A stretch of 48,005 nt of DNA from a virus. The position numbers were made by a program, and so were the translations under genes. Below the pieces are notes generated by a model. That model was given only the letters and a program-made list of their open reading frames with translations. It had not been told where the DNA came from and made no database searches. Shown in pieces: positions 3,454-38,635 of the stretch. Positions within the stretch are counted from its first letter, which is position 1. Each line of letters opens with the position of its first letter. The stretch spans positions 1 through 48,005 of IMG/VR virus record IMGVR_UViG_3300020118_000025. The stretch is one strand, 5' to 3'.

Positions 3454-4004
3454 CAGATCGTGCATCCAGGGAAGCTGGCCGCCGCGCTAGTGATGGCCGA
3501 TTGCAAGCCGCTCAACGCGGAAGTGATGCCCGAAACCTGCGATGTAAGGTTTGTTAGCTGCGACATAATCAGGTTGTAGTCGTGCTGAATGGCGGTAAGG
3601 TCTGCGCCCAGCGCAAGCGCCTGCTGCACGAAGCTTGCCGTGTTGGTAGCGCCGAAGCCTACCAGCACCAGCCCCTGAGCCTTGATATACGCGATGGCGC
3701 TTCCCAAGTCCGATACTGCGGCAGCGGTAGCCGACACGGTGCCAACAGCCGTGGTGGACGCCTGCGATGCCGACAGCGTGGCAATGTGCGATGTCAGCTT
3801 TGAAATCTGGTTGCCGATGTTCGTAATTTGAGTCGTTACGGCTGCAATCTGCGCAGTGGTCGAGGACAGCGTGGCGTTGACGGAGGCAGTCACGTCGGTA
3901 TGCATCGCTTGCAGTTCAGCGCATGACTTCGCCGCAGCGGCGCGGTGCGCCATGCTAGTAAAGTACGCCGTATTAACTACTGTCGATCCTTGCGGGATAG
4001 CCAT
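3453..4004 (-). CDS. Baseplate-region protein with Ser/Thr/Ala-rich heptads
   Basis: 183 aa, not recognised. The sequence is dominated by Ala, Ser, Thr and regularly spaced Ile/Leu/Val (for example TTAQIAAVTTQITNIGNQ), suggesting a long helical coiled coil. The only cysteines are Cys28 and one near the C-terminus. It is translationally coupled to the gp25-like gene and lies after the spike gene, so a structural baseplate or fibre-connector role is plausible but unproven. Confidence 0.7.
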   Translation of the reverse strand: MAIPQGSTVVNTAYFTSMAHRAAAAKSCAELQAMHTDVTASVNATLSSTTAQIAAVTTQITNIGNQISKLTSHIATLSASQASTTAVGTVSATAAAVSDLGSAIAYIKAQGLVLVGFGATNTASFVQQALALGADLTAIQHDYNLIMSQLTNLTSQVSGITSALSGLQSAITSAAASFPGCTI

Positions 4005-19755: not shown

Positions 19756-19857
19756 ATCAACCCCGATCCATGTGTAAGCGGCCAGAAAGCCGGACAAATC
19801 AATGGTACAGAGTTTTCAACGCAAAATCAACAAGGTAAATTTATTTGTGCAAAGCTA

Positions 19858-19886
19858 TTGCATGCGTTTAATTTTCGTGGCACAGT
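19858..19886 (+). promoter_or_regulatory. Promoter-like element (TTGCAT-N17-CACAGT)
   Basis: TTGCAT at 19858, a 17-nt spacer, and CACAGT at 19881, followed by TTCGTCATCG, a 10-mer also present downstream of the 36796 element. The upstream AAGCTATTGC is also shared with the 36796 copy. It sits about 65 nt before the 129-aa plus-strand gene, so it is the likely promoter of this island. The -10 match is weak. Confidence 0.5.
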
Positions 19887-19951
19887 TCGTCATCGCAAGA
19901 CAACTTGCAACCGCAGCCAGCGGACACTGGCAATCTCGGAGAACGCGACAC

Positions 19952-20341
19952 ATGGACATCGACAACCTCACCATCGGCCAAGCTAAAGAGCTGGCCGCAA
20001 TGTTCGGCGCAAGCGCGCCACAAGCCCCGCAGGCGGCAACTCTTAACGGCATGATCGGCCAGCAGGTAATCATCCGCACTTACTCGGCCGGCAACTGGTT
20101 TGGCACGCTGAGCGAGAAGGGCGGCAACGAGGTCATCCTCACTAACGCTCGCCGCATGTACCAGTGGAAGGCCAAGGAATCCATCACCCTGAGCGCCATT
20201 GCCCTGCATGGCATCGATGAATCGAACAGCAAAATCATCCAGGCGGTGCCGTCCGTCTGGCTCGAAGCCATCGAAATCATTCCATGCTCGGCCAAGGCCG
20301 CCGCTCAGCTTGCAGGTGCCGCGAATGTCAAAGCTCAGTAA
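19952..20341 (+). CDS. DUF6948-like phage protein
   Basis: 129 aa from the ATG at 19952 (GGAG 11 nt upstream). NLTIGQAKELAAMFG leads into a beta domain (IGQQVIIRTYSAGNWFGTLSEK, NARRMYQWKAKESITLSAIALHG) and PSVWLEAIEIIP, matching DUF6948 proteins. Function unknown. Its 3' end overlaps the start of the Gly-Ser repeat protein, and the pair has its own promoter-like element and terminator, so it behaves as an independent cassette. Confidence 0.75.
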   Translation: MDIDNLTIGQAKELAAMFGASAPQAPQAATLNGMIGQQVIIRTYSAGNWFGTLSEKGGNEVILTNARRMYQWKAKESITLSAIALHGIDESNSKIIQAVPSVWLEAIEIIPCSAKAAAQLAGAANVKAQ

Positions 20342-20583: not shown

Positions 20584-20608
20584 AAGCCCCTTCGCGGGGC
20601 TTTTTTTT
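20584..20608 (+). terminator. Intrinsic terminator of the DUF6948/Gly-Ser cassette
   Basis: AAGCCCC, loop, GGGGC, then eight T. It ends the plus-strand two-gene island before the convergent tRNA genes. Confidence 0.93.
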
Positions 20609-20623
20609 GCCTAAATATTTGGA

Positions 20624-20649
20624 CAAAAAGAACCCGGCGCTTGGCCGGG
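20624..20649 (-). terminator. Terminator of the tRNA transcript
   Basis: On the minus strand, CCCGGC/GCCGGG hairpin (6 bp, 5-nt loop) followed by TTCTTTTTG. It lies just past the last tRNA and faces the plus-strand terminator. Confidence 0.75.
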
Positions 20650-20679
20650 CTAAGTCCTTGGAGAAGGAGGGGAGGGAAC

Positions 20680-20753
20680 TGGAGCGGCTATAGGGAATCG
20701 AACCCTAGTCTTATCCTTGGAAGGGATCGGCTCTACCATTGAGCTATAGGCGC
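20680..20753 (-). tRNA. tRNA-Gly(UCC)
   Basis: 74 nt including an encoded CCA. Acceptor GCGCCTA pairs with TAGCCGC with one C-C mismatch; D-arm GCTC/GAGC, anticodon loop CUUCCAA (anticodon UCC), T-arm TAGGG/CCCTA. It reads GGA codons. Confidence 0.9.
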
Positions 20754-20761
20754 TTTGAAAC

Positions 20762-20835
20762 TGGAGTCCACTACAGGATTTGAACCTGTGTGCGCCGGGT
20801 TGCAACCGACTGCCTCGCCTCTCGGCCAAGCGGAC
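20762..20835 (-). tRNA. tRNA-Cys(GCA)
   Basis: 74 nt with encoded CCA. Acceptor GTCCGCT pairs with AGTGGAC (one G-U), anticodon loop UUGCAAC, T-loop UUCAAAU. It is 8 nt from the Gly tRNA, implying one transcript. Confidence 0.9.
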
Positions 20836-20843
20836 TTTGAAAC

Positions 20844-20918
20844 TGGCAGATCATGATGGAATCGAACCACCTCTGCACGGCTTTGGAGGCCGGCCGACTA
20901 CCATTATCTTTATGACCT
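20844..20918 (-). tRNA. tRNA-Trp(CCA)
   Basis: 75 nt with encoded CCA. Acceptor AGGTCAT pairs with ATGATCT (one G-U), anticodon loop CUCCAAA, T-arm GGTGG/CCATC with loop UUCGAUU. The D stem is weak. Confidence 0.9.
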
Positions 20919-20927
20919 GTTGAAACT

Positions 20928-21002
20928 TGGAGAACCGTATGGGTTTCGATCCCATCTGCGCAGCGTGAAAGGCTGCTGACTTCGCCAGAAGTCTAACGGT
21001 TC
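20928..21002 (-). tRNA. tRNA-Glu(UUC)
   Basis: 75 nt with encoded CCA. Perfect acceptor GAACCGT/ACGGTTC, D-arm GACTT/AAGTC, anticodon stem GCAGC/GCTGC with loop CUUUCAC, T-arm ATGGG/CCCAT with T-loop AUCGAAA. Confidence 0.9.
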
Positions 21003-21007
21003 AAACT

Positions 21008-21108
21008 TGGTTCGCGCAACTGGATTCGAACCAGTAATTCAAGGAGCGTGAGCCGGTCTCTGCTAAAAACAAACTGGACTTGCACCAGCAGCGAAGCGCA
21101 TCACGCAA
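21008..21108 (-). tRNA. Degenerate fifth tRNA-like gene (anticodon uncertain)
   Basis: A clear T-arm (ACTGG UUCGAAU CCAGT), acceptor 3' strand TGCGCGA and ACCA end are present. The 5' part is irregular: an acceptor 5' strand TTGCGTG needs three G-U pairs, and the element would be 101 nt with a roughly 22-nt variable arm. The best anticodon stem (UUUG/CAGA) gives loop UUUUUAG and anticodon UUU (Lys); a one-step shift would give UUA, an ochre-reading anticodon. It could be a decaying or unusual class II tRNA. Confidence 0.45.
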
Positions 21109-21202
21109 CGCACCCACTTGGGACGACAAGTATATCTGCCGTGTTTTGTTAAATAGGCGGCCGGTGATGAAGCTCCGGCTTTACAGAGTTGGCGGCCATC
21201 AC

Positions 21203-21530
21203 CCCAACATGATCGGAGTGCTGCACCCATCCTAACGTGTGTCTGAATATCCTAACATAGCGCAATCATCACTTGCGTATTCGCCTAAAGGAATTACCGG
21301 GCTGTAGGCTTAACCAAGGTTGCAGCTCCTTATCCTACGTCTGGTTTGTATCCGCTGCATGTCGCACGGCTCGCACCGTGAAGACCTAGCTTCCTTGAAC
21401 TTCTCCCCCAATGCTACCCAGTTAGCAAAGCTGGTTTCTTGTAATCGAGAAGGCGCTAGGAGCACCGATAATTTCTTTAGGCGGCCGGTTAAGCCAGCCA
21501 AGCTACGTGAGCCGTCTAAATCACGTTGGG
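21203..21530 (-). ncRNA. Candidate large structured RNA beside the tRNA cluster
   Basis: No convincing gene lies in 21109-21565. Nested long-range pairing is visible: 21203-21213 with 21520-21530 (11 positions; the one A-C in the plus strand becomes U-G in the minus strand) and 21282-21290 with 21475-21483 (9 bp). Inside are hairpins at 21299-21328, 21365-21380, and a two-helix arm 21385-21390/21455-21460 plus 21400-21405/21447-21452. This is the layout of a multi-branched RNA on the same transcript as the tRNAs. Ornate phage RNAs such as GOLLD also lie near tRNAs, but identity with any family is not claimed. Confidence 0.6.
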
Positions 21531-21565
21531 TAGGACTTAACTATGCCACAGGTGATTTGCGCTTG

Positions 21566-22399
21566 TCAATCATCTTCTTCGAGTCCTGGGATAATTGCAC
21601 GCGAGCTGCAACCACAACGCGGCAGATAGCCGGGCTGTATCCACTCGCCATCGATGTACGCGCCCTTGGCGATGTCGTACACGAGCTTGTCCGCGCCTGC
21701 CTTGACGTGGGACGGGCGAGGCTCGCGGCCGCCATGAGAGTGGCGCCAGATTGCCTTAGTGATGCCAAGCTCGAGCCGGCGCACCTTCTCTGTGATGGAC
21801 TTGGCCTTGGACGCTTGATCCTTAGCAATGAAAGAGGCGCGGCGATGCGTGACGCCGTAGCGCTGCTGCAACGTGCTGGTAAGCGATTCGAGGTCGTAGC
21901 CTTGCGAGACGGCGCGCCACACGTCGCCCTCGACTTGGGTAAGGTACTGGCTTGGGATTGACTTAATAAGCGCCACGTTCTCGGACAGCACGGCTTGGTA
22001 GCCCTCGCGCATGGCCGGCGTCATCTGGAACTTGACCGCAAAGCCGGCCTTGGCTAGCTCGGCCTGAAACGCTGCTTGCGTGGTCGAGGTCGCGCCATCG
22101 ACAAACACTTTCGCCAGCTCGGGCGCGAGCGCATCGAACTTGGCTTGCCATGTGTCGATCATCTTGCGCATAGACCGGCGCAGCGCCTGCATTGGCTTGG
22201 CATCCTGCGCCAAGTCCACTATCTCTGTCGGGTCGTCCTTGCGCCACGCCGCGCGCGTCCAGTAGATCACTGACTTGCTCATGGCCGTAACGAGGTCTTG
22301 TAGCTGCTTGCGGTAAGCCTCTTCGACGCCGGCATTGGGAACGAGCGCGCCCAGCACTATCGGCTTAGCGGTGGGCGCTTGGAGCTTCTTAGAAGCCAT
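21566..22399 (-). CDS. Minor head protein, Mu F-like (phage head morphogenesis)
   Basis: 277 aa from the ATG at 22399. N-terminal EAYRKQLQDLVTAMSKSV, central helices, then ARASFIAKDQ-like RRASFIAKDQASKAKSITEKVRRLELGITKAIWRHSHGGREPR and PGYLPRCGCSSRAI: the C-terminal TRAxFIARDQ...WxTSxDxRVRxxH..PxxxCRC pattern of SPP1 gp7/Mu F proteins. It acts inside the head near the portal and follows the portal gene with one small gene between. Confidence 0.87.
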   Translation of the reverse strand: MASKKLQAPTAKPIVLGALVPNAGVEEAYRKQLQDLVTAMSKSVIYWTRAAWRKDDPTEIVDLAQDAKPMQALRRSMRKMIDTWQAKFDALAPELAKVFVDGATSTTQAAFQAELAKAGFAVKFQMTPAMREGYQAVLSENVALIKSIPSQYLTQVEGDVWRAVSQGYDLESLTSTLQQRYGVTHRRASFIAKDQASKAKSITEKVRRLELGITKAIWRHSHGGREPRPSHVKAGADKLVYDIAKGAYIDGEWIQPGYLPRCGCSSRAIIPGLEEDD

Positions 22400-36246: not shown

Positions 36247-36431
36247 TAGTTTCCTTGCTGCGCTTTGATGCGCTCCGAATTTGGAACTGCCGCATAATCT
36301 TTGAGCGCATTTTTCACCGTGAAATCGTTGCTCTCGAAGATTTTTCGGAATGTTTCATCGACGCGCATTTCTTTGATGCGGTCGAAGGCCTCGCGGCTCA
36401 TTACGTGGAAAGGCTCGATTGGCTGCGTCAT
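36246..36431 (-). CDS. Small hypothetical protein downstream of repressor
   Basis: 61 aa with ATGA overlap to the repressor stop and TAATG to the next gene. Helical (AFDRIKEMRVDETFRKIF). Unknown. Confidence 0.65.
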   Translation of the reverse strand: MTQPIEPFHVMSREAFDRIKEMRVDETFRKIFESNDFTVKNALKDYAAVPNSERIKAQQGN

Positions 36432-36709
36432 GCTGGCGTCTCGTCGCTGGTTGGCTTGGGTGCGCCGCGCTCAGCATCGCCGATCAACTCGCGCATCCGC
36501 TTGATGGATACGCCGGTGCGCTCGTGGATTTGCACGAGGCTGGCGCCAGTGATGGGGTGCTTGCCAGTACGCACGGTGCTGATTACGGGTCGGGACAGGC
36601 CGATCTTGTCGCTGAGCTGCTTGTCGTTGGAGAGCTTGAACTTCTCCAGCAAGAAGTTGAACAGCTCGCCGGATCGGTCGTTGGGAAAGTCTTTCTGTAG
36701 CTTGGGCAT
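36428..36709 (-). CDS. XRE-type repressor (Cro/CI-like, DNA-binding domain only)
   Basis: 93 aa from the ATG at 36709 (GAGGAA ribosome site); upstream in-frame ATGs are not used because the leader is the promoter region. LFNFLLEKFKLSNDKQLSDKIGLSRPVISTVRTGKHPITG is a helix-turn-helix of XRE type (recognition helix about residues 38-48). It lacks a C-terminal cleavage domain, so RecA-style cleavage is not expected; the antirepressor may inactivate it instead. Confidence 0.82.
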   Translation of the reverse strand: MPKLQKDFPNDRSGELFNFLLEKFKLSNDKQLSDKIGLSRPVISTVRTGKHPITGASLVQIHERTGVSIKRMRELIGDAERGAPKPTSDETPA

Positions 36710-36743
36710 TTGTGTTTCCTCTGTAAAATTGAACTTCGCCTCT

Positions 36744-36772
36744 ATTGTCGCATTGTTGTTTGTTGGCCGCAA
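36744..36772 (-). promoter_or_regulatory. Leftward promoter-like element of repressor gene
   Basis: On the minus strand TTGCGG (36772-36767), a 17-nt spacer containing ACAACAATGC, then GACAAT (36749-36744). It shares TTGCG, the spacer length and the ATGC end with the rightward element 24 bp away. Together they form the divergent control region of the phage. Confidence 0.5.
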
Positions 36773-36795
36773 TCGATTTAATTTTGTGGAAGCTA

Positions 36796-36824
36796 TTGCG
36801 CCACACATAAAACCATGCAATACT
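36796..36824 (+). promoter_or_regulatory. Rightward promoter-like element (TTGCGC-N17-AATACT)
   Basis: TTGCGC at 36796, spacer CACACATAAAACCATGC, AATACT at 36819, followed by TTCGTCATCGG. It precedes the first gene of the rightward early operon by about 25 nt. Confidence 0.55.
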
Positions 36825-36849
36825 TCGTCATCGGTTAGGAGAAAGCGCC

Positions 36850-37164
36850 ATGTACGGTAAAGCACTAGAGGTTAGCGGGTTGGTGGTAACGGCAAGCGTG
36901 ATGGGCGGCCTTGAGCTGGAAATGGCGCAGGTTTCGCCAGTTACTGTAACGTGCCTGATGGACGGCCAGAACGTAAGCAAAGTCCACGCAGACGAAGGCA
37001 TCGAGTTCGCTACAGAGGGCGGCTTACTCACACTGACTTACATGCGTTGCGCAGACATTACAGACCTGTGCAACCGGAAAGAATTAGCAAAGCGGCTGCG
37101 CGCCATCGAGGAAGAAGGCGACGCAATAACGATCCATGTATCCAATGTGAAGGGTAAATTCTGA
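36850..37164 (+). CDS. First gene of rightward early operon, unknown function
   Basis: 104 aa; AGGAG precedes the ATG at 36850. Beta-rich start (ALEVSGLVVTASVMGGLEL) then a cysteine-containing MRCADITDLCNRKEL region. In this position other phages carry a cro-like or accessory gene, but no helix-turn-helix is visible. Confidence 0.72.
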   Translation: MYGKALEVSGLVVTASVMGGLELEMAQVSPVTVTCLMDGQNVSKVHADEGIEFATEGGLLTLTYMRCADITDLCNRKELAKRLRAIEEEGDAITIHVSNVKGKF

Positions 37165-37367
37165 TGTCCAAGCAAACACCGGCCGGCAAGCCAATCCCAA
37201 CCTGCAATCAGGAGTGGCCGAACCAAAACGAATCGTGGGCCGAGTTCATCGCCCGCACCGATGCGGAAGGTGTCGAGTCGTCCAAGGTCGCAACGCTCTT
37301 GGGCTTTGCAATTCTCGCAGCATCGGTTATCTTTGTGATTATCGACACGCTCGACAAGAGCCTGTAA
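37164..37367 (+). CDS. Small single-span membrane protein
   Basis: 67 aa, TGATG overlap with the first gene. Hydrophilic N-terminus, then a single membrane span (LLGFAILAASVIFVIID) near residues 44-60. Unknown; superinfection exclusion is one possibility. Confidence 0.7.
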   Translation: MSKQTPAGKPIPTCNQEWPNQNESWAEFIARTDAEGVESSKVATLLGFAILAASVIFVIIDTLDKSL

Positions 37368-37373
37368 AAGTTT

Positions 37374-37744
37374 CGGCCAGCTAGAGCCGATAGGTTGTCA
37401 GGGAATCTAGCAAGCTGCGCGGTCAAAGGAGTATCACCGCGCATAGCCTGACTGGCTCAACCAGTCTCTATTTCGCAACACAGTCGGATCACTTCCCATT
37501 CAACGGATGGGGATAATGTGCAAAACTGACTTTTCAGGCTAGCTTGAACAGCTTACAAGCACATGGCGGACATGTTCAAAGCCGCAGCACGAAGCCATGG
37601 CGAAGTCGGCCATCCCGGAGGCACCCGGGCCTATTTCAGCCCATAGTAACGCGCAAGCCAATGGCGTGCCATCCGGGGCTAAGCGGATGGACTCCTTTCG
37701 GGCGATGGCTCTAGCCTCACATTGGTTGAGCCAAACAGTGGCCG
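37374..37744 (+). ncRNA. Candidate large structured RNA before the ERF gene
   Basis: 500 bp (37368-37867) without a credible gene. CGGCCA (37374-37379) pairs with TGGCCG (37739-37744) and the adjoining GCTAGAGCC (37380-37388) with GGCTCTAGC (37707-37715), closing the element. TGGCTCAACCA (37453-37463) pairs with TGGTTGAGCCA (37723-37733) and so makes a pseudoknot. Local hairpins: 37416-37443 (8 bp) inside 37397-37452, 37493-37513, 37526-37537, 37542-37560, 37614-37629, 37669-37690 (7 bp). Identity unknown; could also be a long structured leader of ERF. Confidence 0.65.
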
Positions 37745-37867
37745 TTGACACTGACTAAAAATTGCCCCCTAACTCATAGGGAACGGAAATGAGAGAGGCA
37801 GGTTGTGGAAAACATGCCGCAGAAGGTGAAAGCCCTTCCTACATATAAAAATCCTCGGAGCTAATAA

Positions 37868-38635
37868 ATGGAACAAGAATTGCAACTGGTCGAAGACCAG
37901 CAGGGGCGCGGCTTGCCTGTCGTAACACAACAAAGCTACGGGACAACGCCGGCCGATCTGCTGGTCTACGCCATGAAGAACGGCGCATCAATCGCAGAAG
38001 TGCGCGAGTTCATGATGCTCAAGCGTGAGTTTGATGCCGACGAGGCGCGCAAAGCTTTTGTTGCCGACATGGCCGAGTTCAAGAAGAACCCTCCTGAAAT
38101 TGTCAAAGACAAGCTAGTTGGCTACAAGAACAAGGATGGCAGTGTTACCGGCTACATGCATGCCACTATTGGCAACGTGACTGCCGCTGTCGTTGCGGGC
38201 CTTGCAGCGCACGGCTTTAGCCACCGCTGGACTATCGACCAAGCCGGCGCAAACATCACTGTCACATGCGTTCTTACCCACAAGCAGGGCCACAGCGAAA
38301 GCACGCCGCTTACCGCTCAGAAGGACGATAGCGGCAAGAAGAACCAGATTCAACAGGTTGCCTCGACCATCACTTACTTGCAGCGCTACACGCTTCTTGC
38401 GGCCACTGGCGTAGCAACCAAGGATCAAGAGGATGATGACGGTAAGGCATCCGATACAGAATCACCAGCCAAAGAACAAAAGAAAGAGACGCTTGCCGGC
38501 CCACGCTTTGACCAAGCACTGGCGGCGATCCGCGCCGGAAAGTATGACGCCATCGCCATGCGCGACTACTACCAACTGACGCCAGACCAAGACGCGGCGC
38601 TTTGCGATCTGGAAAAGGAGATGGCCCGTGCTTAA
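37868..38635 (+). CDS. erf: ERF-family single-strand annealing protein
   Basis: 255 aa; GGAG seven nt before the ATG. REFMMLKREFDADEARKAFVADMAEFKKNPP, NKDGSVTGYMHATIGNVT, and KKNQIQQVASTITYLQRYTLLAATGVAT are the ERF signature. It anneals complementary single strands during phage recombination and works with the exonuclease encoded next, which overlaps it by 8 nt. Confidence 0.92.
   Translation: MEQELQLVEDQQGRGLPVVTQQSYGTTPADLLVYAMKNGASIAEVREFMMLKREFDADEARKAFVADMAEFKKNPPEIVKDKLVGYKNKDGSVTGYMHATIGNVTAAVVAGLAAHGFSHRWTIDQAGANITVTCVLTHKQGHSESTPLTAQKDDSGKKNQIQQVASTITYLQRYTLLAATGVATKDQEDDDGKASDTESPAKEQKKETLAGPRFDQALAAIRAGKYDAIAMRDYYQLTPDQDAALCDLEKEMARA

Follow-up and report, generated by a model that had tools for sequence, protein, structure and literature searches.

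Few large and ornate phage RNAs are known, these being GOLLD and ROOL. Both occur in phages near tRNA islands and assemble into RNA-only cages, and no function is known for either (PMC12286853). GOLLD is a large RNA of ornate structure that sometimes carries a tRNA inside a linker and has a variable 5' part (PMC12286853). ROOL, of about 660 nt, is found in phages and prophages near tRNAs, and it has several pseudoknots and no known protein partner (PMC12286853). The window, by which we mean the whole 48,005-nt stretch of viral DNA analysed here (IMG/VR record IMGVR_UViG_3300020118_000025), has two non-coding stretches to be set beside these RNAs:

37374 to 37845 (approximate), plus strand: RNA1, at the same place in five phages, its ends inferred from the outermost conserved hairpins
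21003 to 21565, minus strand: RNA2, the second non-coding stretch, 560 nt, ending at tRNA-Glu, Trp, Cys and Gly

The setting near tRNAs that is typical of GOLLD was seen for RNA2 with its four tRNAs and for related sequences in three other phages (L130, L025 and L106), but not for RNA1 of the window. Further points of likeness to GOLLD are the ornate build, a tRNA that is sometimes carried inside and a variable 5' part. RNA1 has about half the length of GOLLD and its modules are different. ROOL resembles the present RNAs as a phage RNA near tRNAs with pseudoknots, but its about 660 nt are arranged in another architecture. The initial annotation could not match the RNA to a known family, and this still holds, as an Rfam search at E up to 10 gave no match apart from three chance-level hits; cmscan of window positions 37100-38000 and 20600-21700 and of L025 (E<=10) found neither GOLLD nor ROOL, nor did searches of the relatives (E up to 1-2), and group I or group II introns were not matched at E<=10. 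Likeness to tmRNA (RF00023, RF01849, RF04321) lies in the pseudoknots and a tRNA-like part, and in a tag segment of the relatives HK620, Klebsiella 6991 and Magnus, but RNA1 of the window shows neither a tag reading frame nor a tRNA-like domain and is not matched by the Rfam tmRNA models. Neither Rfam nor ARAGORN called a tmRNA in the window, and the relatives gave sub-threshold matches only. A resume codon with a short tag frame was not found on reading RNA1 of the window and was seen in HK620, Kp6991 and Magnus. The put RNA of phage HK022, which is about 65 nt long, is likewise a pair of hairpins within the early operon of a phage, but RNA1 is larger, positioned otherwise and has different relatives.

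In the window, the genes up to 36865 point leftward and those from 36850 onward point rightward. Because they diverge at a helix-turn-helix gene (36428-36865), the stretch from 36850 on looks like a lambda-type early operon. The order within it is a 104-aa gene, a membrane-protein gene, a gap and the ERF gene:

36850 to 37164, plus strand: operon gene 1, 104 aa, with homologs in L001, L085, L130 and L137
37164 to 37367, plus strand: small membrane-protein gene, 67 aa, with homologs directly 5' of RNA1 in L001, L085, L130 and L137
37868 to 38635, plus strand: ERF single-strand-annealing protein gene directly 3' of the gap (Pfam PF04404, E 3.6e-15)

The 500-nt gap in front of the ERF gene, amid packed coding sequence, was already described in the initial annotation and was confirmed here (37368-37867). 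Its presence had been taken as a sign of selection for something other than protein; that argument is weak alone, and the claim is carried by the comparative evidence. No ORF was conserved across the gap, where just short matches in several frames were seen, no promoter-like site was found within 36700-38000, and ARAGORN and Rfam gave no tRNA cloverleaf in 37368-37867.

Synteny and pattern searches yielded four orthologous gaps (L001, L085, L130 and L137), which with the window makes five phages. L001, with the same operon and a gap of 351 nt, was reached via relatives of ERF, and a hairpin common to its gap and that of the window provided the search patterns leading to L025, L085 and others; L130 was reached by alignment of the 104-aa protein and L137 by the last pattern search. 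Searches with the proteins of the two upstream genes alone were unsuccessful, no useful hit came from BLAST of the gap sequence against phage and plasmid sequences, and a pattern scan of genome contigs returned chance matches only. The ERF relatives L002-L022 had no comparable gap and no hp1-hp2 (the 5' hairpin pair listed below) above chance, and the R1 covariance model, whose E-values are rough like those of the second model R2, had no match at 1e-5 among 369 genomes of one class.

In all five phages the gap lies 3' of the membrane-protein gene and 5' of a single-strand-annealing protein (SSAP) gene, and hp1 was found at this place in each. The SSAP gene is ERF in three phages and RecT (PF03837) in L085 and L137; in the latter, the RNA and RecT are separated by an HNH gene. 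As the same place is kept in five phages across the swap of ERF and RecT, comparison of the sequences shows that the putative RNA holds its position despite exchange of the gene that follows. Outside the modules listed below the gaps vary greatly, both in length (about 250-560 nt) and in sequence. The HNH endonuclease gene of L137, on the minus strand after the RNA, is preceded by an inverted repeat (CCATGTGGTCGAAGCAGAG/CTCTGCTTCGACCACATGG).

By comparison, RNA1 is shown to contain at least four predicted structural modules that bear compensating changes, an H-type pseudoknot among them:

37380 to 37411, plus strand: hp0, GCTAGA (37380-37385) pairing with TCTAGC (37406-37411), from two sequences only
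37416 to 37443, plus strand: hp1, stem TGCGCGGT/ACCGCGCA, loop CAAAGGAGTATC, with covariation
37444 to 37449, plus strand: linker UAGCCU from hp1 to hp2, of the pattern TAGCYT, with independent sightings
37450 to 37466, plus strand: hp2, stem GACUGG/CCAGUC, loop CUCAA (CUYAA), with covariation
37542 to 37560, plus strand: hpC, stem GCUUG/CAAGC, loop AACAGCUUA, consensus nACRGCkYA, in a gapless block
37561 to 37585, plus strand: H-type pseudoknot, stem 1 ACAUG/CAUGU, loop GCGG pairing with downstream CCGC, linker UCAAAG
37822 to 37838, plus strand: 3' hairpin, stem GAAGG/CCUUC, T-loop-like 7-nt loop UGAAAGC (UGNRANY)

The homolog of hp0 in L137 (GCCAGA/TCTGGC) has one double change and lies in 109 nt of 79% identity; hp0 is missing from L001, L085 and L130, in which hp1 comes directly after the upstream gene. 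The comparison as a whole draws on five orthologs, which are few, and on short alignments partly chosen by eye; shuffle controls leave relatedness in, and slid controls were also low. For hp1 in seven sequences, five of the eight pairs changed on both sides (score 0.607 vs 0.207 shuffled, 0/500), and the 12-nt loop is kept as CAAnGGwGUAwy in the four orthologs and in L025. Since TAGCYT belonged to the search pattern, conservation of the linker among pattern hits is by selection, and it was found independently in L025 and as TCGCC(T) in L001, L130 and L137. The covariation score of hp2 was 0.503 in 12 sequences (vs 0.222, 0/500). Three of its six pairs were fixed by the search pattern, and the other three, left free, were all formed in 8 of 19 distinct pattern hits vs 2.4 in shuffles (4/20000 as high), these eight hits lying in non-coding stretches.

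Between hp2 and hpC, a long arm in L001, L085 and L137 has strands that are rewritten yet complementary (17, 14 and 14 bp). Together, hpC and the pseudoknot form a gapless 44-nt block (37542-37585) in the window, L137, L001 and L085, in which all five pairs of hpC are formed. Among 21 records the R2 model placed only these four sequences, which match by construction, above chance. The pseudoknot loop and its partner change together (GCGG/CCGC, CCGG/CCGG, GGAG/CTCC and, with a one-base shift, CTCG/CGAG in L085), and in 2.19 Mb the pattern was found in three exact-register orthologs and two relaxed matches and nowhere else. A possible partner of the hp1 loop (GACUCCUUU, 37690-37698, plus strand, pairing with AAAGGAGU by 8 bp) was equalled by 6/300 shuffled loops, and the partners in the other orthologs lie in different places and are weaker, mostly at chance level. 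In five sequences including RNA2 of the window, 20/20 cells of the 3' hairpin were paired (score 1.0 vs 0.24, 1/500, for hairpins picked by eye), and from this conserved hairpin it follows that RNA1 reaches about 37845. Two readings of single hairpins were rejected. The hp1 loop (AAAGGAG) is not taken for a Shine-Dalgarno or anti-Shine-Dalgarno sequence, as L085 has AAUGGUG, and hp2 is not taken to close a tag reading frame, as no stop codon arises from the CUCAA loop.

A different fold had been drawn in the initial annotation, in which two contiguous helices closed the element end to end and a third crossed them as a pseudoknot:

37374-79/37739-44, plus strand: outer closing helix CGGCCA/TGGCCG
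37380-88/37707-15, plus strand: second closing helix GCTAGAGCC/GGCTCTAGC
37453-63/37723-33, plus strand: 11-bp crossing helix TGGCTCAACCA/TGGTTGAGCCA

All helices named there exist in the sequence; a perfect long-range helix of at least 11 bp arises in 1/150 shuffles, and 37374-37744 folds better than dinucleotide shuffles (z -3.0; whole gap z -2.8). The closing and crossing helices have no counterpart in any of the four orthologous gaps, and they use the same strands as hp0 (37380-37411) and hp2 (37450-37466), hairpins with which they compete and of which hp2 clearly covaries. We consider these helices to lie outside the native fold, and they may be due to chance or represent an alternative fold peculiar to the window phage. 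The 3' limit at 37744 was too short by about 95 nt, the conserved structure reaching 37838. RNA1 is indeed pseudoknotted, but the conserved H-type pseudoknot at 37561-37585 was missing from that description. The kind of RNA claimed, a structured, pseudoknotted and conserved phage RNA, is borne out by compensating changes in homologous gaps, although these fall in other helices than those originally listed. Overall the observation was thus partly confirmed and its interpretation partly supported.

A copy of hp1-hp2 (21525-21483) is found at the start of RNA2, where the R1 model matches 21527-21481 on the minus strand (20.1 bits, E 0.0018), and two further hairpins of this stretch have likenesses in the family:

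21088-21074, minus strand: UGNRANY hairpin of RNA2
21179-21160, minus strand: hpB-like hairpin of RNA2

As a whole RNA2 folded no better than shuffles (z -0.7). Other copies of hp1-hp2 stand before tRNA-His (L025) and near tRNAs (L106), an intact tRNA-Arg forms the end of the L130 gap, and in L105 hp1-hp2 occurs alone about 60 nt before a gene. The predicted 5' module hp1-hp2 is thereby shown to recur beside tRNA genes in other phages and also in the window itself, on the strand opposite to RNA1. RNA2 (minus strand) also has a T-arm and a CCA-like end just 5' of the four tRNAs. In L101 (minus strand, motif at 3614), hp2 comes directly after a sequence that resembles a tRNA but escapes ARAGORN, and a tRNA-like fold seems to stand in place of hp1. 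Beside RNA2 the window has a DUF6948 gene (19802-20341) and an adjacent Gly-Ser repeat ORF, and a similar gene and Gly-rich repeat stretch directly follow the RNA of Iodobacter phage phiPLPE (L115 812-1410).

We tentatively prefer to read RNA1 as a conserved, non-coding RNA, about 430-470 nt long and belonging to the tRNA-linked ornate type, which would act free and resemble GOLLD and ROOL as a member of neither; this stands somewhat below an even judgement. RNA1 would be transcribed on the plus strand along with the neighbouring genes of this rightward early operon, be cut out of the transcript via tRNA-type and RNase E-type processing, and act as a free, tightly folded RNA. As in GOLLD and ROOL, it might do so alone, by assembling with more copies or by holding a tRNA, and its role would be exerted neither by coding nor by controlling expression of the gene behind. 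We infer an excised free RNA because of the tRNA linkage, the size, the elaborate structure and the independence from the downstream gene. The lone hp1-hp2 of L105 speaks against it, as it would suit a cis element too. Also against it are the small number of five orthologous gaps, their marked differences outside the modules, and the lack of a kissing core (described below) and of a recognisable tRNA in the window copy. The main rival, possible but rather unlikely, is a cis-acting leader of the ERF or RecT gene that sets translation, mRNA cleavage or stability without a separate RNA. For a leader speak the constant place of RNA1 directly before the SSAP gene and in its orientation, in five phages whose SSAPs come from two unrelated families, the negative search for a promoter-like site in 36700-38000, and the stand-alone copy before a gene in L105. 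However, RNA1 is very big and elaborate for this role, its 3' part near the start codon has no common form, the HNH gene of L137 separates it from RecT, and related modules (RNA2, L025, L106) precede tRNA arrays and not protein genes.

The tRNA-Arg of the L130 gap, the T-loop-like 3' hairpin of the others and the widely differing gap lengths would also suit the remains of a tRNA island, in which hairpins derived from tRNAs are mixed with mobile hairpin modules and which is decaying in the window and intact only in L130-like relatives, but decay yields no compensating changes across independent modules including a pseudoknot, and we regard this as improbable. Still less probable is an antitermination RNA like put of HK022, read by RNA polymerase during transcription of the operon. 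The adjacent hairpins hp1 and hp2 in an early operon fit such a role, as does the related RNA of HK620, flanked by the late promoter region and the holin gene, but RNA1 lies about 520 bp into the operon and far exceeds put RNA in size, and RNA2 precedes tRNAs late in a structural operon. Inverted repeats near replication and recombination genes could finally belong to a DNA element such as a replication origin or recombination site, or be due to chance. This reading is already disfavoured and very improbable, as the orientation is always sense to the operon, G-U pairs, conserved 12-nt and 9-nt loops and an H-type pseudoknot are traits of RNA, and covariation exceeds that of shuffles and slides.

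The L085 gap carries in addition a core of kissing hairpins (a/b arm, hairpins A and B, c strand), in which strand b comes first and is followed by hairpin A (AATGCGCAGGCTGATGCGC), then a variable part, then hairpin B (GCCGGAGATCAGCACCGGC) and finally strand c. BLAST with this core matched known phages, and its members include HK620, P1 and Klebsiella and Pseudomonas phages:

L114, L116, L117, L118 and L119-L128: core-bearing records of HK620, Pantoea PA-1, Gungnir39, Magnus, phi_D3, AP1, P1, PY54, Aeromonas, Kp6991, KsaM-C1, phi2, D6 and P7869

Strands b and c pair in 18/18 members (own vs swapped partners 100 vs 68, 0/5000), and loops A and B are complementary in 17/18, PY54 being the exception, with changed pairs in Iodobacter phiPLPE and L106. 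The core is mostly located in unannotated sequence near holin or lysis genes and tRNAs; its HK620 form was present in 162 of 5426 E. coli genomes, and 292 phage records had some core match, the weakest being chance. In several members an upstream strand competes for the same partner in the covarying helix around the hairpins. The sequence strings of the core were not found in the open-access literature searched, and the literature on phage tmRNA and structured RNAs, with subscription journals thinly covered, held no account of the core.

A tmRNA-like tag segment adjoins the core in HK620, Klebsiella 6991 and Magnus, where the Rfam tmRNA models score below gathering. The segment (AUAAAUGCAAACGA) and a tag-like frame after it lie 5' of the core (L114 ~1788, L124 1268-1310, L118 ~1757), the frames reading ANEEMYLAVA stop and ANDDVVLMAA stop. 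In phage P1 (L121 1183-1870), tandem units after tRNA-Asn and tRNA-Thr each have a T-arm-like hairpin inside a long helix, and STnc100 and int-alpA matches to Rfam above threshold lie near the phage RNAs (L118 3554-3768; L116 2164-2229). In RNA1 of the window the kissing core was not found by eye, and because RNA1 has neither the core nor a recognisable tRNA, its link to the wide family is via L085 and hp1-hp2.

Possibly, though with considerable doubt, RNA1, RNA2 and the kissing-hairpin RNAs of HK620, P1, Klebsiella, Pseudomonas and Iodobacter phages could form one unrecognised superfamily that carries or mimics tRNAs and acts in trans during infection, perhaps as RNA-only assemblies. The tRNA-like traits behind this suggestion are the T-loop-like hairpin, an embedded tRNA or tRNA-like domain and, in some members, the tmRNA-like tag. 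The present results add a covariation-backed family in another setting than that of GOLLD and ROOL, namely an early recombination operon, and tie it to an unannotated kissing-hairpin RNA of the laboratory phages P1 and HK620, in which tests by deletion and expression are easy. If the link is true, the role of tRNA-linked phage RNAs would become testable in standard E. coli systems.
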